The notes under the pieces: generated by a model
Database searches by the model: none
Told to the model about the DNA's origin: nothing
The model's input: only the letters and a program-made list of their open reading frames with translations
Translations under genes and position numbers: made by a program
In this document: positions 4,330-57,162 of the stretch, one piece after another
Position numbering within the stretch: the first letter of the stretch is position 1
Layout of the letters: every line of letters starts with the position of its first letter
Assembly (NCBI RefSeq): GCF_038396675.1
Contig: NC_088933.1
Span: 37,971,001-38,035,000, forward strand
Origin: Hydra vulgaris
Lineage: Eukaryota > Cnidaria > Hydrozoa > Anthoathecata > Hydridae
Direction of reading: 5' to 3'
Length of the DNA stretch: 64,000 nucleotides

Positions 4330-5291
4330 ATGGGTCGTTGTCCAAACAAAAACCATGTTTAACTGAAGCCATGAAAAAAAAAGCGACTGGAATGGGTTAG
4401 AAAACACCAGCATATGACTATTGAAGCCTCGAGTAGAGTAAATATAATTTATAATATTGTAAGAAACCAGAAAAATTTATAGCTAATAATTTAAAATATC
4501 TTTCAAATGTTTTACATGTCTGCTTCTAGGAGGAATCGGCATTTCAAATTTTGATGGACAAAAGCTCATTTGGTCAATGACGCCCAGGAGAAAAATTCCA
4601 CCATAACTGCGTTTTGGAAAAGGTTAAACATCCTGTAAGTGTAATGGTGTGGTTTGTGATCTCAGCCAAGGGTATGGGCTGCCTTTACATTGAAGAAGGG
4701 ACCATGAGGCAGGACCAGTACAAGCGAGTACTCCCAGATCTATGAATGGTTCCCTGGTAATGACGAGTATATGTTCATACATGACTCAGCACCGTGGTAT
4801 AAAGCTATGAATGTTACAGCATTTTTAACTGAAAAAAAAGTGCGTGTTTTGCCATGGTCAGGGAATTTGCCTGATATGAACTCCATAGAAAATCTACGGG
4901 AGTTCACAAAACACGAAATTGACAAAGAAATCATGACTACCAAGCAGCAATTGATAGAATCCCTTATAAGAGAGTGGCATAGCAACACTAGTCTTCAACA
5001 CAATGCAAAAGTCTGCATAGAAAGCATGCCCCGACTTATGAAAGCTGTTATTGTAGCAAAGGGTGGCATTACAAAATATTAAGATTATTACCTTATTTGT
5101 TATGTTAAAACTTTTTATAAAAAAATAGTTATGAATAAGTAATTATGTTGTTATATATTCTAAATAAAGCTCTCTAACAATAAAAAAAATAAAAAAAATA
5201 ACATCAAGATACGTATTTATTCATTAAAGTAGTTTATACTTTAAAATTACTTAAAAAGTAAAGTGTCCCTAATAATTTGGCAACCCACTGT
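4330..5291 (+). pseudogene. Tc1-like transposase (DD34E), decayed
   Basis: Fragments of a Tc1-family transposase run left to right: a KKKRLEWVRKHQHMT motif at 4370-4420, a segment at 4600-4740 with VMVWFVISAKGMG, and a 103-residue open stretch at 4771-5082 holding HDSAPWYKA (second catalytic aspartate) and LPDMNSIENL (catalytic glutamate), with 34 residues between the two. Stops and shifts before 4771 break the frame. At 5262-5291 the sequence ends in aataatttggcaacccactg followed by TA, a typical Tc1-type right terminus at a TA target. A matching left end is not visible, so the left part is lost or heavily mutated. Confidence 0.75.
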
Positions 5292-18184: not shown

Positions 18185-19491
18185 ACGGGTGATGTGGAAG
18201 TTATCGGACAAATCCTAATTTCATTATTTGAGCATAATAATTAGTTTTTGTGGTTTTATGCGTAGGCATAAACGTTCTATAAAATATAAACTTTATTATT
18301 TGAAACACAATTATTTAAAATGAGGTTAAATACAGCTGAACAAGAATCTTTTCGAAAGCAACTAAAAATGTTTTTTGCAAATAAACCTAACATTAAAAAA
18401 AAAAAAATCGTAAATCATTTGGAAAAGGAAGGATTTGCTCGAAGTACAATATATGATAACCTAAAAAGACTTGAAACTGTTCAATCATTTTCTGATAGAA
18501 AGCACCCTGGTCGTCCGACATCCTGGACTAGAGAAAAGAAAGCCGAATTAACGAGACTTGTCAACATTTGAAAAGGGATCAGTCAGAGAAAAATAGGTAT
18601 TAAATTCGGTGAAAATCAATCGACAATTGGTCGTCAGTTAAAAAAAATGAATATTAAATATAGAAAAAGTGAAAAGACTCCAAAATACACTATAGAACAA
18701 CAAATAAAGGCAAAGAAAAGAAGCAGGAAACTAGTCAACCAACTCTATAACACAAAATCGCTTCTAGTCATCGATGACGAAAAATACTTTTGTTTTGCAG
18801 GGGACAATATGCCTGGAAATTTTGGATACTACACAAACAACAAAAAGACATGCCCAGAAAGTGTTCGTTTTATAGGAAAAGAGAAATTTCCAAAAAAATT
18901 ATTAATGTGGATAGCCATATCTGACCCTGGTATGTCCGAGCCATTGTTTCGCACTTCCAAGGCTGTAGCGATCAATTCATCAATCTATATTAATGAATGT
19001 TTAGAAAAACAACTTCTTCCATTTATTCACAAGTATCATGGAGACTTTAACTATTTATTTTGGCCAGATTTAGCAAGTTCTCATTATTCTAAGGATTCTC
19101 TAAATTGGATGGACCAATATGTCTATTACGTTGATAAAGAATCCAATCCCCCAAATGTGCCTCAAGCACGACCAATTGAAAATTTTTGGGGACATTTGGC
19201 ACAGAAGGTTTATGAGGGAGATTGGCAAGCTTCAACAGAGCAAGTTTTGATTGATCACATCAAACTAAAACTACAAGAAATTGATTTAAACTTATTACAG
19301 TCGCATATGAAAGGCGTCTGAACAAAACTGAGATCAATTGCAGATGGTGGTGTTTTTTCATATAAAAAATAATATATTTTTATTAAAAGATAAATGCTTT
19401 ATTTTAAAAAAATATAATAGTAGTTTGTTTTTTTATTTATAAATAAGTTATTGACGTTTTTATTTTGTCCGATAACTTCCGCATCACCCGT
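18185..19491 (+). mobile_element. Tc1/mariner-superfamily transposon, structurally complete
   Basis: The ends are 28 bp inverted repeats (18185-18212 and 19464-19491, starting acgggtgatgYggaagttat) with a single mismatch. TA lies on both sides (18183-18184 and 19492-19493). The 1307 bp element contains one transposase frame of family length. High terminal identity and the near-intact frame indicate a recent insertion. Confidence 0.95.
18320..19321 (+). pseudogene. Tc1/mariner-like transposase with one internal stop
   Basis: From the ATG at 18320, about 110 bp inside the left terminal repeat, the frame runs 334 codons to the TGA at 19319-19321 and is interrupted only by a TGA at 18569-18571. 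The N-terminal 80 residues look like a paired-type helix-turn-helix (FARSTIYDNLKRLE) followed by a GRPTSW motif. A second HTH-like part (SQRKIGIKFGENQSTIGRQL) spans the stop. The catalytic part shows LVIDDEKYF (first D), LFWPDLASSHYS (second D) and QARPIENFWG (E). There are 36 residues between second D and E, unlike the 34 of classic Tc1 or mariner D34D. All three acidic residues are present, so a single nonsense change may be the only inactivating lesion. Confidence 0.9.
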
Positions 19492-19934: not shown

Positions 19935-22900
19935 GTTCAAAGTCAGATCAGGTTATCCTGCTACTGGTAAAATGTAACCCAGTACAATCTGCTTCATGTC
20001 CTGCTGCCTTGTAGGATACGCCTTTTTAGGCAAAGGCTAGGAGATGCCAACTCCGACTTAAAACACCCCCGCCTAAGGGCTCTTGGTTGAGAAAAGGCTA
20101 GAGATGGTGTCTCGATAAGAATACCCATCTAGGTTACTGTCTTGTAGAAGGCCTCCTAGGCAAAGAGTTAAGGGGTAAACAGATTCTATCTGTTGACCAG
20201 CCTCCCACCCCTTCTTCATCTATTAGGCTGGTGCAGATATATTTTTAGTACATTGTTTCCAGTTTAGGATGTTGAATGGTGGATCTTCTTGACTCAATGC
20301 ATGGGTATTGCTTGTGTCTCTGTTTTTATGACTAGGCAACTCATTCTATTATTTCCTAATGAGGGTACAGCTGTAAAACTCAGTTTTATGGTTCTGAGGC
20401 CAGCTGGTAATCAGGTTACCCAAACTCTGTGTTAGCTCTCAGAGAGGCTGATTCCATAAACAGCTGAAAAATATCAAAGTATTAACAGTGCCATGTTGCG
20501 CATGGATGGTGTCCCTGTTTGTACTTTTGGTGTGCATTGCGGAGGCCACATTTGGAGCCCTTTGTTGCGGCTTAGGGTTTATTAGTAGTAATGAGTCAAT
20601 TGCTTGGGCTATTAAACAGTGTTCTGAGTACTATCTATTCTTTGAGTCAAGTTCTTCAATCTAATTTAAAAATGAATAAAGTCACAAAAACTATAAAACA
20701 CAAAAAACCATCATCATCACCAAGTTCTCTAAACGTATCATTCACTAATGTTCGAGGTCTTCGAAGTAACTTTTCTTCTGTTGAGTCTTATCTCTTGCAA
20801 AGTTCACCAGACCTACTCTTTGTGAGACTGATTTGAGTTCAGCTGTCTCATCTTGTGATCTTAGTATTGATAGTTATCTTCCTTTAATTCGTAAAGACTC
20901 CAATAGACACATGCATGGCCTGGGCATTTACATTCGTAAGAATTCACCCTTTTATCGTGAAACTAGGTTTGAATCCACAGACTATTCTTTCATGTGCTTT
21001 CGCATAGCACCACTTCACTCTATTGCCTTTCTCTTTGTTCTATATCGCTCTTCTTCATCTCAAGATTGCACTCTTTTTGACATTATTTTTGATCGTATTG
21101 ACCAAGCCCTCTCTCTTTATCCATCAGCTAATATAGTTGTTGTCGCTGACGTTAATGCTCACCACTCTGAATGGCTTGGCTTTAGTGTCACTGATTCTGC
21201 AGGCATTAAAGCCCACAACTTTTGCCTTTCTCAATCCCTAATTCAAATAGTCAACTTTCCAACTCGCTTTTCTGACAACCGAAATAATTTACCTTCTCTA
21301 CTTGACTTATGTCTTGTTTCTGATCATAGTCAGTGCTCAGTTTCTCCACATTCACCCTTAGGTGCTTCTGATCTTAGTTTGATCTCATTAAAACTATTAT
21401 CTCATTTTTCTTCATCACCTGAATCCCCCTATTATCGAACCTCTTACAACTGCAGTAAAGCTGACTGGGATTCTTTCTGTGATTTTCTTTGTGATGGCCC
21501 TTGGGCAGAAATCTTTTGTCTTCCTGTCGACAAATGTGCTTTTTACATAACTTCGTGGATTCAGGCTGGCATTGAATTTTTTGTTCCCTCTCGACAATTC
21601 TAGGTCAAGCCTCACTCTCCTTCATGGTTTTTCTCACACTGTGCTGCTGCGATTGCCAATCGAAACCGTTACTTTCATATTTATCAGCAAAACAATTCTC
21701 CAAAAAACAGACGTCTGTTTATTACTGCTAGAAACAACTGTAAAAAGGTTTTGTCTGATGCCAAAACCAGCTATTCTCAGGTCATGAAATCTCGTATCTC
21801 ATCTCAAAAACTAGGCTCTCGTGACTTCTGAAGAATCTTTAATAATATCAATAATAAGGGCAAATCTTTAACTCTACCTCTCTTGTATGGTTCAGACTTT
21901 GTCATCTCACCTAAAGACAAAGCTGAATTGTTTGCTAAAAACTTTTCATCAATATCATTTCTTGATTCCACTAGTTGCATTCTACCTGATATTGCCAACA
22001 AACAGATTGATCCATTGCTTGACATTCACATAACTCCAGCATCTGTATCTAAAGTGATTTCTTGCCTAGACTCTTCTACAGCTTGTGGCCCAGACAACAT
22101 ACCTTTTATTGTCTTGCAGAAGTGTTCCCCGGAGCTGTCGTCTATACTCTCAAAACTATTCAACAAGTGCTTATCAGAATCTTGTTTTCCAGCCTGCTGG
22201 AAAGCTGCATCTGTTATCCCTATCTTCAAAAATTCTGGAGAGCGATCTGATTTGTTTAACTACCGTCCTATTAGTCTTCTTGCTATCATAAGCAAGGTTT
22301 TTGAGTCTTTAATTAACAAACACTTAATTTCTTATCTTGAATCTAATAACTTACTTTCTGACCATCAATATGGATTTCGATCTTCTCATTCTACAGCTGA
22401 TTTGCTAACAGTAATAACTGATAGGTTTTATCGTGCATTAGATAAAGGTGGAGAGGTTAAGGCCATCGCTCTTGACATTTCATAAGCTTTTGATAAAGTT
22501 TGGCATGCTGGTCTTCTCCATAAGCTTTCTTCTTATGGTGTATCCGGCAGCATCTTTAAGATTATTGAATCCTTTCTTTCCAATCGTAGTATAAAAGTTG
22601 TCCTCAATGGACAGCACTCTTCTTCTTATTCTGTAACTTCAGGGGTTCCTCAAGGTTCTATCCTTGGCCCTATACTCTTTTTAATTTACATTAACGATCT
22701 TCCAGATATTCTCACATCTAAGGTGGCATTGTTTGCTGATGATACTACCATTTATTCTTGTCATGATAAGAAACCAACACTCTTTGATTGCTTGGAGGGG
22801 GCATTTGAGCTTGAAAAAGATCTCACTTCTGCTACGGAGCTCACAGTGGCTGGTGAACTTTAATACAGATAAAACTCAATTTTTTTCAGCCAATCGTTAT

Positions 22901-32499: not shown

Positions 32500-33300
32500 C
32501 AAGAAAAAAGAAAAATATGTAAACACTTGTTTTTTATGCACAAGTAAATTACAATATTATTTTTGGATCAGAACTTGTTGCCTGTCCTGCCATGCCAAAA
32601 CCATAACATTGGAAAAGTGTACATATGCAGAAACTTTATGCTTCTTTAATTTGAGTTTTTTTTTCATCTTTAGGTAACTGTTTTCTATTTTTCATTATTG
32701 CCCCTGTAGTTTGTATGTTCATTTTGAGAAGCTCTTGTGCAAGAGAAAAACTAGTATATAATCTGTCAGTGAATAAATGATAACCACTAGCTTGGGCAGC
32801 CTCTAAAAGCTCATCACACAAATGCAACACGATTCGACTTGTAAACTGCATCATAGGTCTTGTCAAACTTTCAGTAGTGCAATTACCATAATACGGTTCA
32901 AAGAAATTAATATAACCTGTTTCACTATTGGCTAAGACAAAAACATGAATGCCCCATTTTGAGGGTTTTTGTGGATAGTAAATGCAAAATGCAACTCTAC
33001 CTTTGAATCCAATAGTACTTTCATCAATTGCAAAATTACGAGATGCGACATACTATATATAGAACAGGAACTTTTTATTTCTGATACAACACGATGCACT
33101 TTTCTTACACGTCTATTCAATTCATTAAATGGATTTGATGGTGTGGATATGTGCAGCATAAAATGTATCTGAAGAAACCAAGTTCTAGAGAAAACTGAAA
33201 AAAATGACATGTAGTTCAGCCAATCACAAGAAAAATAATGTTTTATACTTGATTTTTCATTGATTGTCAATTGCAAAAAACATTGAACATTTTGTACAAA
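32500..33300 (-). pseudogene. piggyBac-type transposase fragment
   Basis: The minus strand reads RTWFLQIHFMLHISTPSNPF, NRRVRKVHRVV (33210-33090), NFAIDESTIGFKGRVAF (33035-32985, holding a catalytic aspartate), KPSKWGIHVFVLANSETGY, EPYYGNCTTESLTRPMMQFT, CDELLEAAQASGYHLFTDRL (32830-32770, with the second aspartate in FTDR), and MKNRKQLPK. These are core motifs of the piggyBac DDD transposase (DDE_Tnp_1_7). N- and C-terminal parts and terminal repeats were not found, and one frameshift separates the two main pieces near 32930. Confidence 0.8.
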
Positions 33301-33439
33301 GCAGTTTGCAAAAAAACAGGTTACTAAGCCACTTTTTAGATGTCGAATTTCAAGTGATTATAAACTAAACAACTGTAACTTATTATGAAAAGATAAATTT
33401 CTATGTTCCTAATTTTCTTCAAGAACTTTTGCTGAACAC

Positions 33440-41239: not shown

Positions 41240-41910
41240 TAGTATTTGAAGATTGATTACTCTCGATAATTTAACGCAGCAGATATTAAAAATTGTTTGC
41301 TGCTCTTTTATAGTTGTTCTGATATATTATCTTTATATTATCTTTATGTTATATTATCATATGCTGATAAATTTAACGGAGATAAATATTGACATCATTC
41401 TGATAATTCAACTAAAGCTGCAGAGAATGTTTTTTGTAGTTTACTTCATTCTGTTAGACTTTTTTTTTTTTATGCCATTTTAAACCTATTGATAAAGATA
41501 GGTCTAATATGAGAAAAGACACTAAAAACCCCCAACTAAAACATGCAAGTCCGGGCAAGCAAGGTACTTTTTTAGAATTTTTCTTTCTCAAGCTACAATA
41601 TTTAAGATTTTTGGCAAAACTCATTTTAAAATACAAACGAACATATGAAGGTTTGGAGTTTACACTTTACCTGTATATTATTAAAGTCAAATTCCAAAAA
41701 GTCTTCGTATCGTCACTAAGAGAAGGTAAGTGTATAGGTGAAAGATCAGAACCTTTACCGTATACACTCAAGCAGGGTCACCAAGAGAGGGGGGGGGGGG
41801 CAAAAGAAACAGTTTGTCCCGGGCGGCAAAAAAAAAAGAGTCCTATAGATATAATATATGGAAATTTTGATGAATAATGGCGCCAATCACGATTGTTGTC
41901 GCAGGCGGCG
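41240..41910. other. AT-rich DNA ending in a GC-rich transposon-like island
   Basis: From 41773 (cagggtcaccaagaga, a run of eleven G, then cccgggcggc and gtcgcaggcggcg) the sequence is much more GC-rich and resembles the end of a hAT-type element. It continues beyond the Transib-like insertion at 45106-45148 (cggcgtggcggctctcggcg, then tgtcaccct). Confidence 0.45.
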
Positions 41911-41934
41911 CACAGTGGGACGAAATCCTGATTT
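41906..41934. repeat. Target duplication plus left RSS-like terminus of the Transib/RAG1-like element
   Basis: CGGCG (41906-41910) is followed by CACAGTGGGACGAAATCCTG and ATTT. The first seven bases equal the V(D)J signal heptamer. The first 24 bases equal the complement of 45082-45105. A CCAAAA block follows 22 bases after the heptamer. Confidence 0.9.
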
Positions 41935-42455
41935 CGTGGCCAAAAGTCAAATTTTTGAGTTTTATATTTTTGTCTTTTCACGTTCAGATCTTGTTTATAG
42001 ATAGTCCTAAAACAAAATTCCGAACAGGGCAGGTATATACCTGCTCTAGGGTGGCCTGGGCGTCAGTTGACATTTAGCCTCCGTTAGGTACGCACTAAAC
42101 AAGTGGATACGTCGAAATATTCTTGCCTGTTTTAAAATGCTGTTAAACTAAAGAAACTATTTCAATTGGAATTCGGCAAAATGGAATCACTTTCTGGAGG
42201 CATGTAGAATATATGGTTATGCACTGTTATTGCTAATTTTAATTTTTTTCATATTTAAATCGCGCGACAAATAAACATAAAAAATTGTAAATTTTTTATC
42301 TGAAATCGATTTTCTAATGTCGTTTTAAAAATTTAACCGCGGTTATCCACCTTCTTTTGACAAGGAACTGATCGTGTATAGTGTAAAATATAACATATTA
42401 AAAAACTGGCTGCCATTGAGTGCCGTTTTAATAATGAGACTAGTTTTTATGGAGG

Positions 42456-42509
42456 AATGCGTGGTGCGACATTAAACTATGTTAATAGATTAATGTCGCA
42501 CCACGCATT
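42456..42509. repeat. Perfect inverted repeat inside the Transib-like element
   Basis: Two 19 bp arms (aatgcgtggtgcgacatta and its complement) with a 16 nt loop, upstream of the transposase frame. Confidence 0.95.
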
Positions 42510-42689
42510 AATGGTCATGGAAATTAGTGAATTAACATTATTTAATAGCACTAATTACATTTTAATGCAATAATTTTTTATTTTAAATATATGCTTTAAA
42601 AGTTACTTCTCATTATGTTTTATGATAATCTCAAAGTTTTATAAAATAGTCCTCAAAGAACTTTCAGCAGTTATTACTGTATTTTTTTT

Positions 42690-44764
42690 TTGAGAGTCTT
42701 CAAAATCTTTAAATATGGAATTTTCAAGAAAAGATATATTCTTTATGGTGAAAGACAGTTTAAAAAAAATGAATATAAATTCATCACTAATGTTTTGACA
42801 GATGCAATTTTCAAAAAAACGGAACATGCGAATCAAGTAGGCGAAGATGAAATGTCATTATCACGGTTATTTTCAAATTTTTGATCGAGATGGAGAGCAG
42901 CAGGAAGATAGAAAGATTTTTTTCTGAAAAAAAAAATGAAAAGCACCGTACAATTTTCAAAAATATCCAATACTGAATGCGCAACACCTGAGAAGATTGT
43001 GAAGAGTGATAATAAAAAAGGAACATGTGGGCGACCTTCGCAATCTTTTTCTTCATCTAGTGAAAGATCAAAGAGGCGAAAGAATCAAGAAGTACGTTCT
43101 ACTTTTTCTACAGAAGAATTGGCATATGCTGCTCAAATGAGTTTAAGGACTTCTGGTCAAGTACATGCTGCTCAAGTTGTTAAAGATGCCACATTAACAA
43201 CCCCAACAAGAGCCAAAAAATATATATATCCGCTGTTAGTTCACAAAACGAAGTATCTTTAACCCCAGATGAAGCACTTTCTTTAATGATTGAGAAAGGA
43301 GAATCAAAGCACTCTTATCAACTATCAAGAAATGTAGCTAGAGCACATAAATGCAAATTATACCCATCATACCTTGAAGTAGAAAAAGCAAAAAAACGTT
43401 GTTATCCATCAGTTGTGTACACAACTGTTAGTGAGTCGTGCGCACAGATTGAACTACATGTTTTACTTGATCATACCACATCTAGAATTATACAACTTCA
43501 GGCTGATGTCATTGATACTCTAAATCCGGAAATTCTGCAAAAATTAGTAATTTACTGTAAATGGGGATGTGATGGAAGCAGCGGTCAAAGTGTTTATGAA
43601 CAAAAACCTACTGAGACTGGAAAATCTGATGAAAGCATTTTTTATACTTCTCTTGTACCTTTACAATTAATGCACAACAACCACAAGACGGGTAAAGCAA
43701 CTATTGTGTGAAAAAATCCTAGACCATCATCTCCGCGATTCTGCAGACCAATACGATTGCAGTTTGTACATGAAGATGTACAGTCAACATTGAAAGAAGT
43801 TACCGATATTGAACTGCAGATTGAGGGTCCTGCACCATGTGCTAATGAACAAAATGGAAAATCCATTTCAGTAACTTATTGTATGTCATTTACGATGATA
43901 GACGGTAAAGTCTGTAATGCAGTAACTGGTACCACTTCTACACAACGCTGCTTCCTGTGCAAAGCTTCCTCTAAAGAATTTAATGACATCAACAACATTA
44001 TAAAAATGGACATTACAACAGATAATTTAAGATTAGGCATATCTACATTGCATGCATGGATTCGTTTTTTCGAGTGCTGTTTGCATCTGTCGTATAAGCT
44101 AACAACTGAAAAGTGGCAAGCTCGTCGAGAGGAAGATAAAAAGAATGTGAAAATACGTAAGGAAGAAATACAGACTCAATTTAGGATAAAACTGGGGCTT
44201 ATCGTTGATCGACCAAAGCCAGAATATCGAAGCTCTAACGATGGAAATACAGCGCGCCGCTTTTTTCAAAATGCTGCTATATCTGCTGAAATAATAGGAG
44301 TCGATGAAAAATTAACTCACCGATTTCAAGTTATTTTGCAGATAATTTCGAGCGGGTTTGATATAGATGATGAAAAATTCAAAGACTATTGTGTAAATAC
44401 CGCCCATTTATTTGTTGCTTTATATCCGTGGTATTACATGCCTACATCTGAACATAAATTATAAGTTGACATTAAAAACTTCAGATTACATCATTCAAGA
44501 AAATGCTCAAGAGAATCGAATATGAGAGACATTTTTAATAGGCTCTTATTAACATCAGAATTATTTCTCTTGAGCATCAGGAAATTGCCCCAGAGACCGG
44601 TAAAATCTCTACATCAAGAAGCTATACAATTGTTAAAACAACCTGAAGTCACCAGACAAGAGACAAGGAACGATTTCGATTTAGATACCGGTGGTTCAAC
44701 ATCAGATTCCGAATCGAATGATTCGAACATTGATGAATATGACATACGTGATTTTTGTTACTAG
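42690..44764 (+). pseudogene. RAG1/Transib-like transposase, catalytic glutamate segment deleted
   Basis: The reading passes from a short N-terminal piece (42690-42884) to RSKRRKNQEVRSTFSTEELA and TTPTRAKKY (42936-43250). After a frameshift near 43220-43285 it continues with DEALSLMIEKG and KRCYPSVVYTT (43286-43711). A W-to-stop TGA at 43709-43711 precedes KNPRPSSPRFCRP, and the frame runs on to 44464. WGCDGSSGQS (aspartate 43571-43573) fits the first catalytic position of RAG1/Transib, and FTMIDGKVCNA (aspartate 43901-43903) may be the second. CFLC (43949-43960) matches the zinc-binding CxxC. LHAWIRFFECC, NDGNTARRFF and ALYPWYYMPT follow. The family then has a segment with the EA-x-NK-x-F catalytic glutamate. 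Here the frame meets a stop at 44462 and resumes as NFRLHHSRKCSRES (44476), so about 30 residues including the glutamate are missing. Confidence 0.8.
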
Positions 44765-45081
44765 GATTAAAGAAACAATTTTTTTACATATATGTGAGTT
44801 AATTTTTTACCAATTAAAAAAAAAAATTAAATTAAAATTTCTGTTTTTTTATTAATAGTATAAATTTGAAAATAATTTTGCAATGTTTTTGCTCTAATTT
44901 AACTCCTGAATCATTAGCAATGACCTTGAAAACTAAACTACATGAGATTTCATATTTTCAACGTATGAACAGTTTTGGCCGCCATATTAGAGCCGCCATT
45001 TTGAATTTTTTAAATCTGACCTCAGATTCCTAATCAGCGACCTCGAAAACCCTTATGTAGGTAATTTGGAAATTTTGGCCA

Positions 45082-45110
45082 AAATCAGGATTTCGTCCCA
45101 CTGTGCGGCG
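45082..45110. repeat. Right RSS-like terminus and target duplication of the Transib/RAG1-like element
   Basis: The complement reads CACAGTGGGACGAAATCCTG and ATTT; CCAAAA follows 20 bases after the heptamer. CGGCG lies directly outside at 45106-45110. Confidence 0.9.
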
Positions 45111-45566: not shown

Positions 45567-47501
45567 TTATACTGACAATGCATAAAAGTGATTTGAGCAC
45601 TTATGCTCTTTTAGGTAACCAATCCCTTTTTCTTCATAGTCTTTTCTATCTATTGCAATACTCCCGATGTTAGAGGTATTAATAAACTTTTTTGCACCAT
45701 ACCAAGCATCCTTTAAACAATCTTTAGCTTCATATATATTAAATTCAGATTGAAAAGGCAAAACAGCCATAAGATCTTGTGTCAAACGTTCTTTAAAACC
45801 CTTAAGTTTGGATATACCACCAGTAAGAAATATATTTTTTATCATTCTTTGTTGAGTTTCTTTATCATAGTTTTGCAAAACATAGCATATACTTGAGACT
45901 AATCCATCTTGTTCTATTCCAACTATACTTGGCTGAAATAATATTTCAGGTACACGTGTAAGTTCAGTTATTAATGGTAATTGCTGAAATTTTTGTCCTT
46001 TACTTACCATAAGCTTATTTAGTAATAACTGATAGTGACCAAGACTTTGTTTTATTTCTGTTAATTTCTCCTCATCCTGCTCATCTTCTGAATCATCACC
46101 ATCTTTACTTATAAATTTATAAACATCCCAATCCTCATCTTTCATTCCAAATGTATCTTCTTTTTCTATCTTTGATGAACCATTATTGGTGTTTTTACCA
46201 CTTTTTGCTAACTGGCTTAATATACGCATACGTTCTTTTGAAGCATAACTTTTGCGTTTATTAAGAGCTTGTTTTCTTAAGTTTCTGGAATATTTTCTGT
46301 CCATTATCTCTAATGACTTATTTTCTAGCTCTTCTATAAGTTTCTCCACATCCTCAATTGAAGTTGATTCATTGTTTTTTGCAACGAAACTCACTCCCTC
46401 ATTTAACTCTCGAAAATATTGTATACTTTTTTCTTCTCGCTCCAAAATTTTTTCTCGTAAACTTTGAATTACACTTGAGAGCTGTGACTCATTTTTTAAA
46501 CCTTCCTCTACTAATTTACTTTTAAAATGAGACTGACTCTCTTCAGCTAGTTTCATAATACACTCAAACTTACGCAGTTCTTCTCGTTCAACTTTAATTT
46601 TTTCTTCGCGTTTTTTTTGGTTTATATCTTTTAATCTTTGGGCTTGTATTCTACGCATCTCAAGCTCTTTTTCATTAGTTGCATTAATAACTGGAACTTG
46701 TAAGCTTACACTACTTGATTCCGCATATTGTTTATTTTGCCACATTTTAAGTTCTTCTGCATAATTACTAGCTACATATGCATGTTCAATCAAAAGATTT
46801 TGAGATCCAGAAAGATTAAATAAGGTTGATTGATTAGGGTATTTTAAATGCAGAAGTCTGTTCATATAAATCATCATGTTTAAACCACCTAAATTTAAAC
46901 GCCTGCATGCAACAGCATCAAACTTAGAGTTTAAAATAGGTAAAATATGACTAGTTTGGTATCCACATCGAATTACTAATCCATCTTGCAAATCAGGCTT
47001 ATTATAGTTAAGACTAAAAAGACAGTCAATACCATACACAATTTTAGGTACACAATAACCTTCAAATAGTAACTCTGTCATATTATGTCTAAAATTATTT
47101 GGAATACATATTGCTTCAGATATACAAATAGGATGATTCACAGCACCATTTGTGTTAATACCTAAGTGTGTAAAAAGATAGTCAAATGCAAATTCTTGAG
47201 TATCAAAATGTGCAACAACATCAGAATCAAATTGAGTGAGAATATTCCATTTAGAATCCTCAAGATCTCTGATGTCATTTCCATAAAAAGTTGAAATAAT
47301 GTCGCTTTCTTTTTTGGTTCGTAATTTTGCCATTAAGTTGCGATAAACTAATTTTGGTTGCTCATCTGTAGACCAGCCTGCTCTACAAGAATGGCTTCCA
47401 TTATCAATAATTATGCAAGCATTTGAATTATTTTGTTCCTCGTACTTCCATATTGGATCAGACTGAAACTCATGATAACAAAATTCAAACTTTTTAACCA
47501 T
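45567..47501 (-). CDS. ACTR5: Actin-related protein 5 (INO80 complex subunit)
   Basis: An uninterrupted 644-codon frame. Known role: ARP5 is a nuclear actin-fold protein that, with IES6, docks on the INO80 ATPase and is needed for nucleosome binding and sliding. The N-terminus carries the actin phosphate-loop motif IIIDNGSHSCRAGW (about residues 29-43) and KLVYRNLMAKLR, then SEAICIPNNFRHNMTELLFE and DGLVIRCGYQTSHILPI. Residues of about 280-490 form a long, charged, helix-rich insertion (EEREEKS, KRKSYASKERMRIL) typical of ARP5. The C-terminus returns to the actin fold with FLTGGISKLKGF (about 555-570) and DAWYGAKKF. Human ACTR5 is 607 residues and yeast Arp5 755, so the length fits. The start ATG follows a stop-rich AT stretch, and no intron interrupts the gene. 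Confidence 0.96.
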   Translation of the reverse strand: MVKKFEFCYHEFQSDPIWKYEEQNNSNACIIIDNGSHSCRAGWSTDEQPKLVYRNLMAKLRTKKESDIISTFYGNDIRDLEDSKWNILTQFDSDVVAHFDTQEFAFDYLFTHLGINTNGAVNHPICISEAICIPNNFRHNMTELLFEGYCVPKIVYGIDCLFSLNYNKPDLQDGLVIRCGYQTSHILPILNSKFDAVACRRLNLGGLNMMIYMNRLLHLKYPNQSTLFNLSGSQNLLIEHAYVASNYAEELKMWQNKQYAESSSVSLQVPVINATNEKELEMRRIQAQRLKDINQKKREEKIKVEREELRKFECIMKLAEESQSHFKSKLVEEGLKNESQLSSVIQSLREKILEREEKSIQYFRELNEGVSFVAKNNESTSIEDVEKLIEELENKSLEIMDRKYSRNLRKQALNKRKSYASKERMRILSQLAKSGKNTNNGSSKIEKEDTFGMKDEDWDVYKFISKDGDDSEDEQDEEKLTEIKQSLGHYQLLLNKLMVSKGQKFQQLPLITELTRVPEILFQPSIVGIEQDGLVSSICYVLQNYDKETQQRMIKNIFLTGGISKLKGFKERLTQDLMAVLPFQSEFNIYEAKDCLKDAWYGAKKFINTSNIGSIAIDRKDYEEKGIGYLKEHKCSNHFYALSV

Positions 47502-48380
47502 ATTTCATTAAAAACTGAAAAAAATATATATAATATTTCATTTATAACAATTTAATACAACAATTACAATTAACTCAAATTTTGAATAAAATAAATTAAT
47601 ATTTTAGCTAAGAAACTAATATATTCAACTTATACTTAAATATACTTTAATATAATAAAATTAGAAATCAGTTTTAAAATTCACGTCACATGTGACGTGA
47701 ATTTTGAGTATGTGCACATATCTATAATCTTTTGATAACCATTGAAATGATTGATAACCATTGAAATTCATTAAAGATTGTAACAGTTCGACAATCTAAA
47801 TTTATTCTTTGCCTAGAAGTTCAATTTTATATATTTTTAAAAATAAGTTAGCATAATACTTTATTTTTTAACTTAATATAGTATACAGAACACATTTAAA
47901 CTTCGTTTTAAAAATTGCATTTTATCTGAAATTAATAAAATAAAAAAATATGTAAAAAGTGGGCAATTATTTACGGTATGTTATGATAGGTAAACAATAT
48001 GACATTAATCTAATGTCATAATGTAAAAAATCAATGGATAAGTCAACTACACCTTTACTAGAAGTCTTTGAATTTTTAATGGCATTTTTATAAAAAATTC
48101 TAATTATCTAATATTCTCATAATTTTATCTAATTTTCTAATTATCTAGAAAATCTGACGGCGATTTTAAGTACTAGATAGTACTGCGCGGTCCAAATAGA
48201 CGTTTAAATTTATTTAAATTAATTTTTTTAGATAAATTAGTCGGCAAAAAGTATTTTTTTGACATTTGTCGGCAAAAACAGATACGTCACCCTCCTAAAA
48301 TCTCTTCGGGACGGCCCTGAGTGTTTATGCAATAAAATCTCTCTCTTTCTCAGACTGTAGAAAATATTAAGATAAGGATT
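47502..48380. other. ACTR5 upstream region
   Basis: AT-rich upstream DNA with a 30 bp perfect palindrome at 47676-47705. At 48283-48320 (ctcttcgggacggccctgag) it holds what looks like a solitary terminus of a hAT-type transposon without a partner. Confidence 0.5.
47676..47705. promoter_or_regulatory. Perfect palindrome upstream of ACTR5 with TGACG and CACATGTG sites
   Basis: The 30 bp sequence reads the same on both strands: each arm is tgtgacgtgaatttt. It contains two TGACGTG half-sites facing each other around CACATGTG, an E-box-like core. It lies about 175 bp before the ACTR5 start codon. Promoter function is an inference from position and symmetry. Confidence 0.45.
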
Positions 48381-50832: not shown

Positions 50833-50865
50833 CGACGCACAGTGAGTCAGTAAGGTAAAAAAAAA
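50833..50865 (+). repeat. Solitary RSS-like Transib terminus with 12 bp spacer
   Basis: CGACG (50833-50837) is followed by CACAGTG (50838-50844), a 12 bp spacer (agtcagtaaggt) and nine A (50857-50865). Heptamer, 12 bp spacer and A-rich nonamer-like block follow the layout of a 12-RSS. No partner end was found in the window. Confidence 0.6.
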
Positions 50866-51117: not shown

Positions 51118-51471
51118 TTACACAGTAAAAAGTAGATGAATTGAAGCAGATGTTTCTGTCAGAATTAAACCCTCAGGATAACATTTGTGTCTCTCATTCT
51201 TAATTTCATGAAGTGAAGGATAAATACCTGCATTGTGTATTATCGATGAATTTCTAATAATTTGATACTGTTCATCAGAAAGGTCACACTGAATTTTTAA
51301 GCTTAAGGCATCTTCTGTTTTCATTTTTATCGGAAAATTTATCTCCGTCATTTTAACTTTTTCAGAGTTTGTAGCACTTTTCATGAGAACAACGAAGACT
51401 TTTTTGTTAAGATCTCTAGTGGCTTTTTTTATTGAAGCTAATGCCAATGCTTCAGAAGGATGTTTAGCCAA
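51118..51471 (-). pseudogene. RAG1/Transib-like transposase, N-terminal fragment (second lineage)
   Basis: A 117-codon minus-strand frame. Its middle (TEDALSLKIQCDLSDEQYQI, RNSSIIHNAGIYPSLHEIKN and RHKCYPEGLILTETSASIHL) aligns by eye to 43280-43470 of the element at 41911-45105 (PDEALSLMIEKGESKHSYQL, then YPSYLEVEKAKKRCYP). Identity is low, so it is a separate family member, not a copy. The catalytic core is absent on this side. A CACAGTG terminus lies 250 bp to the left, where the 3' end of a minus-strand element would be; the core between is missing. Confidence 0.55.
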
Positions 51472-51559
51472 TTCGGCAACCTTAAAAAGGTATTATTTAA
51501 TATTTAAGCTTGTAAACTATTTTTTAACTGGGTTGAACTTAATTGATTTATCACACAAA

Positions 51560-52034: not shown

Positions 52035-54215
52035 ATGAATCAAAAAAAAAAACTTAGCGGAGCTGCAAACAAAAAATGAAAATTGAAAATTGAAAATAAT
52101 ATTTCAAAACTTCCAAAAATATTTGATTTTTTTTCAAAACAAGAAGTAAAAGGTTTTTAGCAACTGTCGGTTATTAGTTTTATGTTTTATAATCTAGCTC
52201 TCTAGTTACATTTAAAACATTTTTAAAATAATTAATATTAATTTAGTTAAAATTACATTAATACAATAACTTCATTATACACTTTGATGGTTTAAAAAAA
52301 AATTAGGAAAATGAAGGATCACCAAGTGAAATTGAGTCTGTTGTATTGTCTAAGAAAACAAGTAGTCAAGTATCACACAACAACACTAGAAATATTAATG
52401 ATTTACATAAAGCAGGCTCCAGTGATGTTCCATTGTAAGTAGTTTCATATGTTTTAAAATATTCCTTTATAATAATAAGTTACATATTTATAAATAATGT
52501 TGGCATTTTATAATTGCTGACTGGAACCAACCTTGTATGAAAAATAAATTAAAATTCCAGTATTTTCAATTGTGCCTAATTGTTTTAAAAACTAGCCTGA
52601 GATCTATTTAAATAAATATGTTTTAGTATTTTAATAATTTAAATTTTTATTGTCGTTTTAGAAGTAACAATGAAGAAAATGAAGAGGCACTTAGTAAAAT
52701 TGAGTCTGTTATATTGTCAAAGAAAACAAGTAGTCAAGTATCACTCAATAAGACTGGAAATATTAATCTGGATATCGATGTTTTACATAAACCAGATTCC
52801 AGTGATATTTCAGGGTGAGTAATTTCACAATATTTTAAAATATTTCTTTATAATATATACAATTTGTATAAAAATGTTAGTTATTTATCTTTGTTGTTTA
52901 AATCTCCTATGTAAAATTAGTAAAATTTAAAATTAAACCTAACCAATAAATGTTGTTTAAAAAAAATAAATATCAATTAAATAGATTATTAGAGAATAAA
53001 TTACTTAAACTTGTAACATAGCCATATAAGTGAAGCAAATAGTGATTATTATTAATTGTTTTCTTTTAATTTGTGGTAATTTTAGTTCTGATCCAGGATT
53101 GTGGGATTGAGACGAGAAAACAAGAGATTATATTTGTAGAAATGGATTCAGCCAAAATATTAATGCAGATTTTACACATTCCAAAAAATCTCATTGTACA
53201 TAAATCCGGAGGTCATCGGACTCTCAAAAGATACTTAAATAAAGATTGGTTTAAAACTGTATTAGTCAATGGAGAGACATGCCAACGAGATTATTTATCC
53301 TACTCAGAAACAAATGGGTCAGTGTATTGTATCCCTTATTATTTGTTTAAAAACCAGACTGTTTTTTCTAAAAAAGGATTCTCAAATTGGAAATATCCAG
53401 AAAAATTGATAAAACATGAAAACTCAGAAGGACATAAAATTTGTGTATACAAAATGAAACAACGGGCAACTGATTTAGGCCGAATAGACACTACAATTAC
53501 TCGTCAATTAAAAATAGAGACAAATTATTGGATTAATGTGCTAACTCGAGTATGTTCTGTAGTAAAGTCATTAGCTAGTCATGGATTACCATTTAGAGGA
53601 ACTGAAGAAAAGTATGGATCTTCTGTTGCTAATAGTGGTAATTTTATTATGGCAATGAAATTAGTTGCAAAATATGATCATTTTTTGTGTCAGCATATAA
53701 GTAAATATGGGAATCCTGGTAAAGGAAATACATCATATTTATCTTTTTATACTTATGAGCAGTTCATAAGTATAATGTCAAAAAAAGTAGAAACAATAAT
53801 TAAAGAAATCAAAGCGGCAACATACTTTTCAATTAGTATTGATTCAACCCCAGATATAACTCACATTGACCAACTTTCTTTTATTATAAGGTATGTATTA
53901 CCAAATGGAGAACCAGTGGAACGTTTTATTGGGTTCATTGACGATGCTGGGCATAATTCCGAGTCGTTAACTGACGCTATATTTTCTATATTGAAAAAAT
54001 ATGACTTAAATACTTGTTTTCTTAGGGGCCAGTCTTATGATCACGCCAAAAATATGTCTGGCATATATTCCGGTGTCCAAGCAAGAATTAAAGATGTTAT
54101 TTCCTTAACTGATTTTATTCTCTGTTCTGCTCATTCGCTAAATCTCATTGGAATGTGTGCTGCTAGTTGTTGCGAAGAAGCAAAAGATTTTTATTCATTT
54201 ACGGGATGTTCAAAT
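52035..54215 (+). pseudogene. hAT transposase gene (ZMYM1/TTF-finger type), spliced, C-terminus lost
   Basis: Four exons can be placed by splice sites and phase: 52035-52145 (MNQKKKLSGAANKK, stop TGA, then PKIFDFFSKQE), 52307-52434, 52662-52814 and 53086 onward (SDPGLWD). Exons two and three are duplicates of each other. Exon four encodes a TTF-type zinc finger region (LNKDWFKTVLVNGETCQRDY, VYCIPYYLF, HENSEGH), then DUF4371-like sequence with YFSISIDSTPDITHIDQLSF (first catalytic D) and CFLRGQSYDHAKNMSG (second D), and FILCSAHSLNLIGMC. It breaks off at about 54215. The insertion domain end, the catalytic glutamate and the C-terminal hAT dimerisation domain are missing. Inactivating lesions: a stop in exon one, a stop after GLWD and a frameshift near 53205. 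Function as transposase is from family knowledge. Confidence 0.85.
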
Positions 54216-54224
54216 AATACGTGA

Positions 54225-55640
54225 TTTGAACAGCCCCTTATACGTTTTTTGTCGTTTTTCTAACACCCCCTCCCCTATGTGACATTTTGTGGCATTTTGA
54301 AGAACCCCCACCCCCCACCCTGTGTGACGTGACAAAAAAATTTTTTTATAAGTTTACATTTTAATTGTAATAGTTTGTTTTTATAAAAAAATACAATTGA
54401 TGAATATCTGTCTAAACCTAAATTTGTTCCCAAATTGGACTTTGACCTTCAAGTATTGGAGTTCCATGTTCTTCAATAATTTTTGAAGGCCAGTTGAGGT
54501 CAGAGGTATCAACATCATCTTGATCATACCACTCGATTGTTTCTTTGTCCGAATTTAAAAAGACACACATGAGTTGAGATAGACGTTGAGCAACTAAGCG
54601 TTGAGGTCTAACTTTTTGAATTTCATTCGAATATCCAATACTTGAGCAAACTGTTTTGTGTTGTTTCATTGATTTGATAGTTGCAAAATATAAACTGCAA
54701 TTGGTACAAACTCTTTTTGGTAAGGAATTTTGAATGCTTGGACATGAGTAGTCGTATGGCAATCCATTGGGATACCTTTTTGTAACTGTCGTGGGCAAAA
54801 TTGTTTTGCAAAGTGATAAGTTTAAAAAGAGAGATGCAAAGTTAATCTTTGTATTATTGCATTCAAGACCATCTTCTCCTTGGAACAAAGAAATTGGTGG
54901 TGGAAGAAAACCAGTTGGAATAAGATGAAACAGTGAGCTGCGACAATGACCACAGCATTTTTGATCATTACATTTTACAATTTGAAGGAAGTATTGACTT
55001 TCTCTGACATGTTTAGCATCCCACTCTGCTCCAAAATGTTTTAACTGTACACATTTTTCACTATTTGGTTTTATGTACTCGGCTTTAGTTTCAAATCCAT
55101 CAATGACTGTGCTAGACCAAGTTTGTGCAAGAACTTCACCTGCTTTGGCAAAGTTTGCCTTCTCCATAACTTTGTCTGTTGTTTCTCCTCTTGAATTAAG
55201 ATGGCTTCCAAAATGATCAAATGGAAATACAATTCCTGCTAGGTCATGGCTTAGCGGAGCCATTCTTCTCTCAACCCTGTTAAAGGCAATTTTTCCAGGA
55301 GCATTAGTGGCCACAAACATTGCATCAAGATCATGTTCTTTGCACAAGTCTTGGCACAATGAATTGTTTTTTCATATCTTGGATTTTCATCTGGCCCACC
55401 ATCAACAGTTATAATCATGATTGGTTTGCTAACTCCATCTTCAGTAAATAAGCTGCTTTTAAATGCAGGAAGATGGTTTATTCTGTTCATGTCTTCTAAG
55501 TGACTAAGTGCTGTTGATGAATCATGTTTTGCACTTCTGATTGCTATGTATGTTGGGCCAGAGTATGTGACTGCTTGTTTTTCCATGCAATCCTTTTTAA
55601 TTTCTATGGCTGCAATTACTGTGGTTCTATGGCTGCAATT
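54225..55640 (-). pseudogene. Orphan DDE-like transposase with C2H2 motif, fragment nested in the hAT element
   Basis: The minus strand is open from about 55740 to 55251 and, after one frameshift near 55355, from 55359 to 54418. Motifs: IITVDGGPDENPRYEKTIHC, then LDAMFVATNAPGKIAFNRVE and RRMAPLSHDLAGIVFPFDHF, YFLQIVKCNDQKCCGHCRSS, FLPPPISLFQGEDG, a CTNCSLYFATIKSMKQHKTV C2H2-like finger, and a tail ending IWEQI. DGGPDEN and APGKxxxNxVERR look like the second aspartate and the glutamate of an RNase H-type DDE recombinase (compare DNGPxF and NGxxER of integrases); this is inference. I remember similar uncharacterised cnidarian proteins. The N-terminal part is absent, so the fragment is 5' truncated. 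A 17 bp duplication (ctatggctgcaattac) sits at its right border. Confidence 0.55.
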
Positions 55641-55697
55641 ACTTAAAATTTTGTTGCCCACGGGCGCCAAAATTTTAAATACGGCCCTGCTTAATAA

Positions 55698-57162
55698 GTG
55701 CAAAAAAAAAGTTTTACAATCTGTAACCATCATCCATTTCATAAAAATATAATTTGAAACTCTATCTAAGTGACATTAACAAAAAGCGCATTGTTTAAAA
55801 AAATCAAATAAAGTAATAAAACTAATTATTAAAATTAAATATTTTAAATGCACTTTTTTAAAAGACCTATTAGTATATATTTTAAGCACCAAAAAATTAT
55901 TTTTTTATTAGCAAAAGATAGCTGCAAACCTAAATTTGAAGAACCCCTGAAAAAATTTGGAGCTTTTAACAAACTTCAGCTTTAACACTATAAAAACAAA
56001 GTAGTACTAAAAACTCGCGCAAGCGAGTTATTTTTTAAACAAAACAATTTAGGTAGGTTATAGGTTCTACATGGTTAAAGTTCAGTCCTACCCAAAAAAA
56101 ATGGATAAGATGGAACAGAGACTTTTTTATACATTGCCACCGAAAAATGTTTCATAACGCCTTTTTCATTTCTTCAAATGTCCAGTTTTGAAGCAATTCT
56201 GCCCCACCGTGGAACGTTCCTTTTTGAAGCAAGAGATCCAGGGTTCGAAACGAGCTCTGGGAATATTTCGCTTTATTGGTAAGAAAGGAGGTGTAAACTT
56301 CCTAGTTCAATTCTATTCCGCGGTGCTATGTGACAAGACCGTTATGATTTCTTGGGAAAACAAAAATTCAAATATATATATATCTTTTTCCTATTCTTTT
56401 TTTTTTATTTGGTGATTCTTTAAATTTAATATTTTTTATTTTAAATTAAAATTTTTAAAACTATTGTTTTTTAGAGCTTTATGTTTTATTTTTGCCATAT
56501 ACTCAGGTTTTGCTAAGTAAAAGATATTTTTGTCAATAGATTTTTGGATAACTTTTAGGAATCTTTTTTATAATTTGCGTTGAGATTTTGTTTTTACTTT
56601 CATTTAAATTGAAATTATCAAACTCGATCATTGTAAATTTTGAGAGATGGGCAAACCACAAGAAATTATTTAAAACAAAAAACTCGAAAATGCAACTACG
56701 CTGTCAAAATATTTACGTTTTTTCTTTTTTTATTTAATAAATAAAAAAAAACACCCAATATATATCATGGTCAATCGTTAAAAACGCTCTCTTATTCATT
56801 AACATTACAAAAAATATTTTACTATCGATAGTAAAAAGGATTTATTCTCAAAAAACAAATGTCCAAATGTATTTACGAAAACAATTTTCTGTAAGATAAC
56901 CCATTAACCAAAAGACTTATTTTTGACGTAAATTTTCTAATATAGAAATATTTTTAATAGAAAAAGATTGCAATTACAGCAATAATGAACATTTAAAAGG
57001 TTAGTAGTAAACTTCCGGTTATTTGAACCTTTATGTTTACTTTGAATAATCGAAAAATAACCAAAATAACCAAAATATTTCAAATAACTAAAAATCCACC
57101 TTAAAGAGAAGTATTTCAGATTAATAACTTCTAATAAATGCTAGTTCGATAAACAATGTGTG
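55698..57162. other. AT-rich intergenic DNA
   Basis: No gene recognised. At 56190-56280 a less AT-rich stretch holds ggttcgaaac, resembling a B box, but no A box is found in front of it. A small palindrome ttttactatcgatagtaaaa is at 56817-56836. Confidence 0.4.

Follow-up and report, generated by a model that had tools for sequence, protein, structure and literature searches.

A decayed Transib transposon in the Hydra genome

The stretch of Hydra DNA analysed here (64,000 bp, hereafter the window; contig 14) contains a 3,195-bp DNA transposon at 41911-45105, with CACAGTG at its termini and CGGCG on either side, which is almost certainly a non-functional, autonomous-length copy of a member of the Transib superfamily. 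This superfamily and the enzyme responsible for shuffling antibody genes have a common ancestor. The 24-bp terminal inverted repeat (TIR) that the initial annotation had read from CACAGTG inwards is indeed identical at the two ends, the heptamer also stands at both ends of a consensus of 52 copies, and the 5-bp CGGCG duplication claimed with it was found in place (Table 1). TIRs and duplication are enclosed by a 29-nt inverted repeat that is 97% complementary. With up to three mismatches allowed, the TIR 17-mer CACAGTGGGACGAAATC was found within the window at both element ends only, the average in shuffled sequence being 0.08.

Table 1. Coordinates of the element and its parts in the window.
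Feature	Position	Strand	Remarks
Left target-site duplication CGGCG	41906..41910	.	exact 5-bp duplication in 37/52 paired copies
5' TIR	41911..41946	+	heptamer CACAGTG 41911-41917, CCAAAA block 41940-41945, 22 bp between; 52-copy consensus
Palindrome with 25-bp arms	42456..42509	.	5' of the coding part of the window copy
Broken transposase gene	42715..44764	+	several frame changes; start set by eye against relative P0002
Upstream frame	42912..43262	+	contains GRPSQSF..SSERSKRRK
First catalytic Asp (WGCDG)	43571..43573	+	aligns to D126 of HzTransib, counted by hand
Second catalytic Asp (MIDGK)	43901..43903	+	aligns to D225 of HzTransib, counted by hand
84-bp deletion and 6-bp insertion	44461..44468	+	takes out the catalytic-Glu stretch (E436 of HzTransib, counted by hand)
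3' TIR	45070..45105	-	heptamer 45099-45105, CCAAAA block 45073-45078, 20 bp between (family 22)
Right target-site duplication CGGCG	45106..45110	.

Assignment to the Transib superfamily

In PDB the read-through protein of the window copy had a single match at E≤10, to the 6pqn transposase (E = 7.2e-92), which we take to be HzTransib of Helicoverpa zea, presumably with five sister entries. A family profile of 24 rows, consisting of the window copy and 23 of the 120 relatives listed among 1338, matched 6pqn at 8.6e-166 (556 bits), and 13 of these rows also matched Pfam RAG1. The search against RAG1 and Transib profiles proposed in the initial annotation was positive for 6pqn, RAG1L and RAG1 by way of the family profile, but the read-through protein of the window copy by itself had no match to Pfam RAG1, and the window pieces compared with Pfam gave nothing below E = 0.01, with weak unrelated matches only (E = 0.012 or worse). 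Transposase remains were present in all 52 paired copies described below; together with the two 6pqn matches and the GC-rich 5-bp duplications they uphold the superfamily membership that had been suggested for the element.

Two other classifications were weighed. The family profile also reached RAG1L of 6b40 (1.2e-11) and RAG1 chains (from 2e-6), as might be expected if the element were RAG-like (RAGL, ProtoRAG or TransibSU) or a domesticated RAG1-like gene and not a plain Transib; yet this profile scored 556 bits against 6pqn and 47 bits against RAG1L, and the window copy by itself gave no match to any RAG1 chain at E≤10. Moreover, the family measures approximately 3.3 kb, the window copy's frames of at least 60 residues include no recognised second gene, and the copies are numerous and decayed. 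A RAG1L and RAG2L pair was not found in the 3.2-kb element, which shows transposase pieces only, as judged from its reading frames. We consider a RAG-like origin highly improbable, and give practically no credence to a CACTA/EnSpm or Chapaev element carrying the heptamer by accident. The latter could draw on the Hydra genome paper, which files Transib under CMC (PMC12220107), and on the placement of Chapaev in the superfamily of Transib in PMC4411706, but is opposed by the 5-bp duplications and by the transposase match to 6pqn in PDB.

The broken transposase gene of the window copy

The main transposase frame of this Transib copy (43184-44764, plus strand) carries stops at 43709 and 44462, and one of the frame changes of the gene lies between 43184 and 43262, the latter being the last position of the upstream frame. 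The motif order noticed in the initial annotation, WGCDGSSG, a second acidic motif (MIDGK), CFLC and NDGNTARRFF, holds within a single frame read across the TGA at 43709. The family-profile counterpart of the GRPSQSF frame aligned very weakly, at 0.5 bits, with a GRP stretch of RAG1, which we take to be the nonamer-binding domain.

The catalytic triad of HzTransib is given as D126, D225 and E436 (PMC6941560) and was placed by a constant offset of 17 along the alignment of the profile with 6pqn, the third residue being the Glu of a QESRNK-like motif. The window copy is a net 26 residues shorter than its relatives in the interval from HKL to DIKNF, the Glu being among the residues lost; residues 587-613 were likewise unmatched in the window copy in a genome search with P0002, and the DNA alignment of copies located the 6-bp insertion at 44462-44467 within the 84-bp deletion. 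A complete DDE triad is thus absent from the window copy, its Glu stretch having been deleted, and because of this deletion, together with the stops and frame changes, the copy is non-functional. We do not doubt that it descends from a Transib.

Copies across the genome

Exact matches to the 17-bp end numbered 121 across the 911.5 Mb and 15 contigs searched, and the reversed control gave none. We analysed 61 loci, namely the window and 60 fetched from 100 places listed, leaving out 14 listed single ends and the unlisted places; the sample therefore favours copies in which one end or both are perfect, and CACAGTG was itself a selection criterion. Paired ends more than 1.5 kb apart were found in 52 of the 61 loci, and at the other nine the fetched stretch contained no second end at the mismatch limits used. 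One locus had more than one possible pair, and picking by end quality alone, with the flanks ignored, left the count of exact duplications given below unchanged.

An exact 5-bp duplication flanked 37 of the 52 paired copies, compared with 162 of 2652 (6.1%) when the 5 bp of different copies were set against each other, and duplications of exactly 3, 6, 7, 8 or 9 bp were found in none of the 52. The 5-bp length expected of other copies in the initial annotation was recovered in this majority, with CACAGTG at the consensus ends of a sample chosen by that end. Among the 15 paired copies without an exact 5-bp duplication, five matched at four of the five positions and ten at three or fewer, two of these ten being one inverted duplicate (L057/L058) with a 4-bp AGAC match. 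The two copies of that inverted duplicate lie approximately 20 kb apart on contig 4. From the window copy alone a duplication of 2 bp could not be told from one of 5 bp, and since CGNCG has CG at both its ends a 2-bp duplication was considered; the other copies decided for 5 bp, as 2-bp identity accompanied a 5-bp match in 23 copies and occurred without it in three, while 14 copies with exact 5-bp duplications had no 2-bp identity. At positions 1, 2, 4 and 5 of the 37 exact duplications we counted C 32, G 34, C 33 and G 30 times, respectively, with the centre free, and over these sites the CGNCG motif was confined to the 5 bp, positions outside holding at most 0.28 bits each.

Only one of the 52 paired copies retained an open frame of at least 600 residues, and this one lacked the exact Glu pattern. 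The exact pattern of the first Asp was present in 36 copies, that of the second Asp in 36 and that of the Glu in 31. The genome search with P0002 scored 63 of 8574 candidates and listed 74 rows; stop-free cover of residues 1-710 was found neither in the 52 copies nor in the 74 rows listed, two of which were free of stops over residues 62-710 and 64-710. When one of L057/L058 was dropped, the median pairwise difference among the remaining 51 copies was 4.5%. Their median distance to the column majority was 2.2%, with single values between 1.4 and 8.2% and the window copy at 2.4%. Because most copies are about equally distant from each other, these values suggest that the family spread in one main wave, with a few older copies.

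The palindrome at 42456-42509 is near-perfect and, by eye, is present in full in 43 of the 51 aligned copies and in a shorter form in six; it looks as if the shorter form was later extended by copying of one arm. We also noted a rearranged transposon end at positions 200-480 of locus L034, with several inverted TIR pieces and including a 36-bp palindrome running from TIR to TIR. In locus L016 (approximately positions 250-270) the sequence CACTGTG CGACG CACAGTG places a second heptamer back to back with the first across the duplication, and the sequence past this second heptamer differs from the end of the window-copy family.

A second Transib family

An end of a second family, CACAGTGAGTCAGTAAGG, lies at position 50838 of the window, preceded by CGACG, and a piece of the N-terminal part of a transposase was found at 51118-51492 on the minus strand, matching 6pqn weakly (0.0079) and P0002 with 37% identity over 63 residues. 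With at most one mismatch, this end occurs 90 times and its partner end 142 times genome-wide, with none in the controls. Copy L096 has both ends of the second family, one of them reading CAGAGTG instead of CACAGTG, as well as an N-terminal piece that is very similar by eye to 51118-51492 and a frame of 392 residues, which has a 6pqn match at 3.8e-72 and is 40% identical to P0002. Exact 5-bp duplications flanked 12 of 17 end pairs of this family; two of the other five were off by one base, two were mismatched and the last could not be judged, its flank being too short. In two of the 17 pairs the ends are 11 and 16 kb apart. A CGNCG-like target is common to both Hydra Transib families.

The consensus ends of the second family, CACAGTGAGTCA and AAAAAACGGCAAAAA, are bipartite in their likeness, agreeing at positions 1-12, 14-15 and 21-35 but differing at 13 and 16-20; an asymmetric pair of ends was rejected once the partner end had been read. 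In four end comparisons between the two families, the heptamer and seven of the eight bases at positions 28-35, GGC[CA]AAAA, were common to all. The background for a 7/8 window anywhere in the 31 bases outside the heptamer is 1.5% per single comparison, the four comparisons being mutually dependent. Identities outside the heptamer came to 17/31 in two of the four (background 0.2%) and to 14 and 16 in the others.

Bipartite ends and their likeness to V(D)J signals

It is accepted that Transib ends are related to V(D)J signals. At both ends the 52-copy consensus of the window-copy family reads CACAGTG, 22 bp and CCAAAA, and the two ends agree at 35 of their outermost 38 positions but no longer further in. 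The spacings of 22 and 20 bp reported initially are true of the window copy, but the family has 22 bp at each end and the 20 bp is a private 2-bp loss; similarly, the near-23 layout proposed for both ends stands in the consensus, with the difference between the two ends explained by the indel. A 12/23 asymmetry was not found at the family ends, both of which have 22 bp to CCAAAA. A symmetric layout of 20-22 bp was already known, as PMC8355894 describes it for Transib ends. The best match to the nonamer ACAAAAACC was 6/9, at spacer 22, a weak likeness.

It is nearly an even matter whether CCAAAA is unrelated to the nonamer and simply belongs to a long TIR of an element rich in A, so that the likeness to V(D)J signals past the heptamer would be due to chance. 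The 6/9 match at spacer 22 is equalled at 1.9% of positions inside elements, and A-runs in the second family give 6 or 7/9 at spacers 11-12 and 21-23, so that one spacing cannot be singled out. The ends of HzTransib are described in PMC8289069 as having little or no likeness to the nonamer, and identity inside one family reflects descent only. Against chance, the second family, with a transposase only 40% identical, has GGC[CA]AAAA at offset 28-35 with 7/8 identities in all four end comparisons, and the two ends of the window-copy family are alike over approximately 38 bp and not further. The two families, long diverged yet resident in one cnidarian, have in common the exact heptamer, the GGC[CA]AAAA block 20 bp inward of it and a CGNCG-like target. 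From these sequence comparisons we tentatively raise the possibility, which we rate at about one in three, that a bipartite 23-like signal is ancient at Transib ends and has been kept by selection; common descent accounts for the likeness between the two families as well as selection does. If such a signal were real, the Transibs of Hydra, being of autonomous length and in unusually many copies, would lend themselves well to testing the origin of the heptamer and nonamer.

Comparison with known elements

The transposase is homologous to that of HzTransib over most of its length, with both Asp residues aligned. HzTransib measures 3518 bp and is flanked by a 5-bp duplication, GCTCG (PMC1852546); in contrast, the window copy has no Glu stretch and the target is CGNCG-like. 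Drosophila hopper and transib2 likewise duplicate 5 bp that lie within a palindromic motif whose centre is free, but their target is given as CCANTGG in PMC3276498, as opposed to CGNCG in the Hydra family. The likeness to V(D)J signals, RAG1 and ProtoRAG comprises the exact consensus heptamer, an A-rich block near 23 spacing and a homologous catalytic core, whereas the Hydra ends are alike (no 12/23 pairing), no RAG2 was recognised and the nonamer match is 6/9.

Earlier reports of Transib from Hydra, to which the initial annotation had referred, do exist (PMC9435367, Hvu; PMC12220107, CMC-Transib), and Hydra is among the species of the superfamily tree in PMC4411706. According to PMC12220107, CMC-Transib is one of 14 putatively active Hydra families, outside the most expressed. 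The family of the window copy may be one of these published Transibs. PMC9435367 distinguishes subgroup I (CTT1 and alpha11-12) from subgroup II (CTT2), and symmetric ends would exclude subgroup I as described there. Neither the ends of the window-copy family nor the CGNCG motif was found in the passages of openly available papers that were searched. For autonomous Transibs a single copy, or a few at the most, is typical according to PMC4411706, and by that account the copy number in Hydra is unusual. The 121 exact ends and the 90 and 142 ends of the second family provide statistics on which end and target bases matter.

Proposed transposition and spread

In intact relatives, the transposase would bind the ends over approximately 35 bp, as that of HzTransib does, and would cut at the CACAGTG border, forming hairpins on the flanking DNA; the freed ends would then be joined to the two strands of a new target at points 5 bp apart, giving CGNCG-like duplications. 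Hairpin cutting is reported for HzTransib (PMC6941560), and by analogy we infer that the chemistry of the Hydra family is probably the same. The family probably spread mainly in a single wave.

Of the 34 rows placed in a tree, P0001 was the immediate partner of the window copy (support 100/99), and P0002 and P0003 joined these two at the next level (100/100). HzTransib was distant from the Hydra family, on a long branch of 1.62, and those rows around the Hydra set that bear organism names come from insects. Organism names were attached to 11 of the 120 rows listed (of 1338 relatives), all of which we take to be insects. Horizontal spread of the family, for example from insects, was considered as one possible reading of this placement, and horizontal transfer has been proposed for Transibs in PMC9435367. 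In viral contigs the TIR 17-mer had seven matches, approximately the number due to chance by a rough estimate, and a protein-alignment scan of such contigs gave 13 pattern matches and no confirmed relatives.

Surroundings of the element in the window

Five further frames in the window looked like mobile elements by eye (4708-5082, 18572-19321, 20785-22863, 32636-33357 and 54418-55775), comprising two Tc1/mariner-like frames, a LINE reverse transcriptase-like frame, a piggyBac-like frame and one of unknown type; Pfam gave no match for 54418-55775. A protein with Pfam DUF4371 (E = 1e-21), presumably hAT-related, is encoded at 53070-54224 on the plus strand. Approximately 460 bp from the element lies a single open frame on the minus strand (45567-47504). 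Going by how its relatives are named, its protein is ARP5-like; apart from the self-match, the nearest of them shares 59% identity with it.
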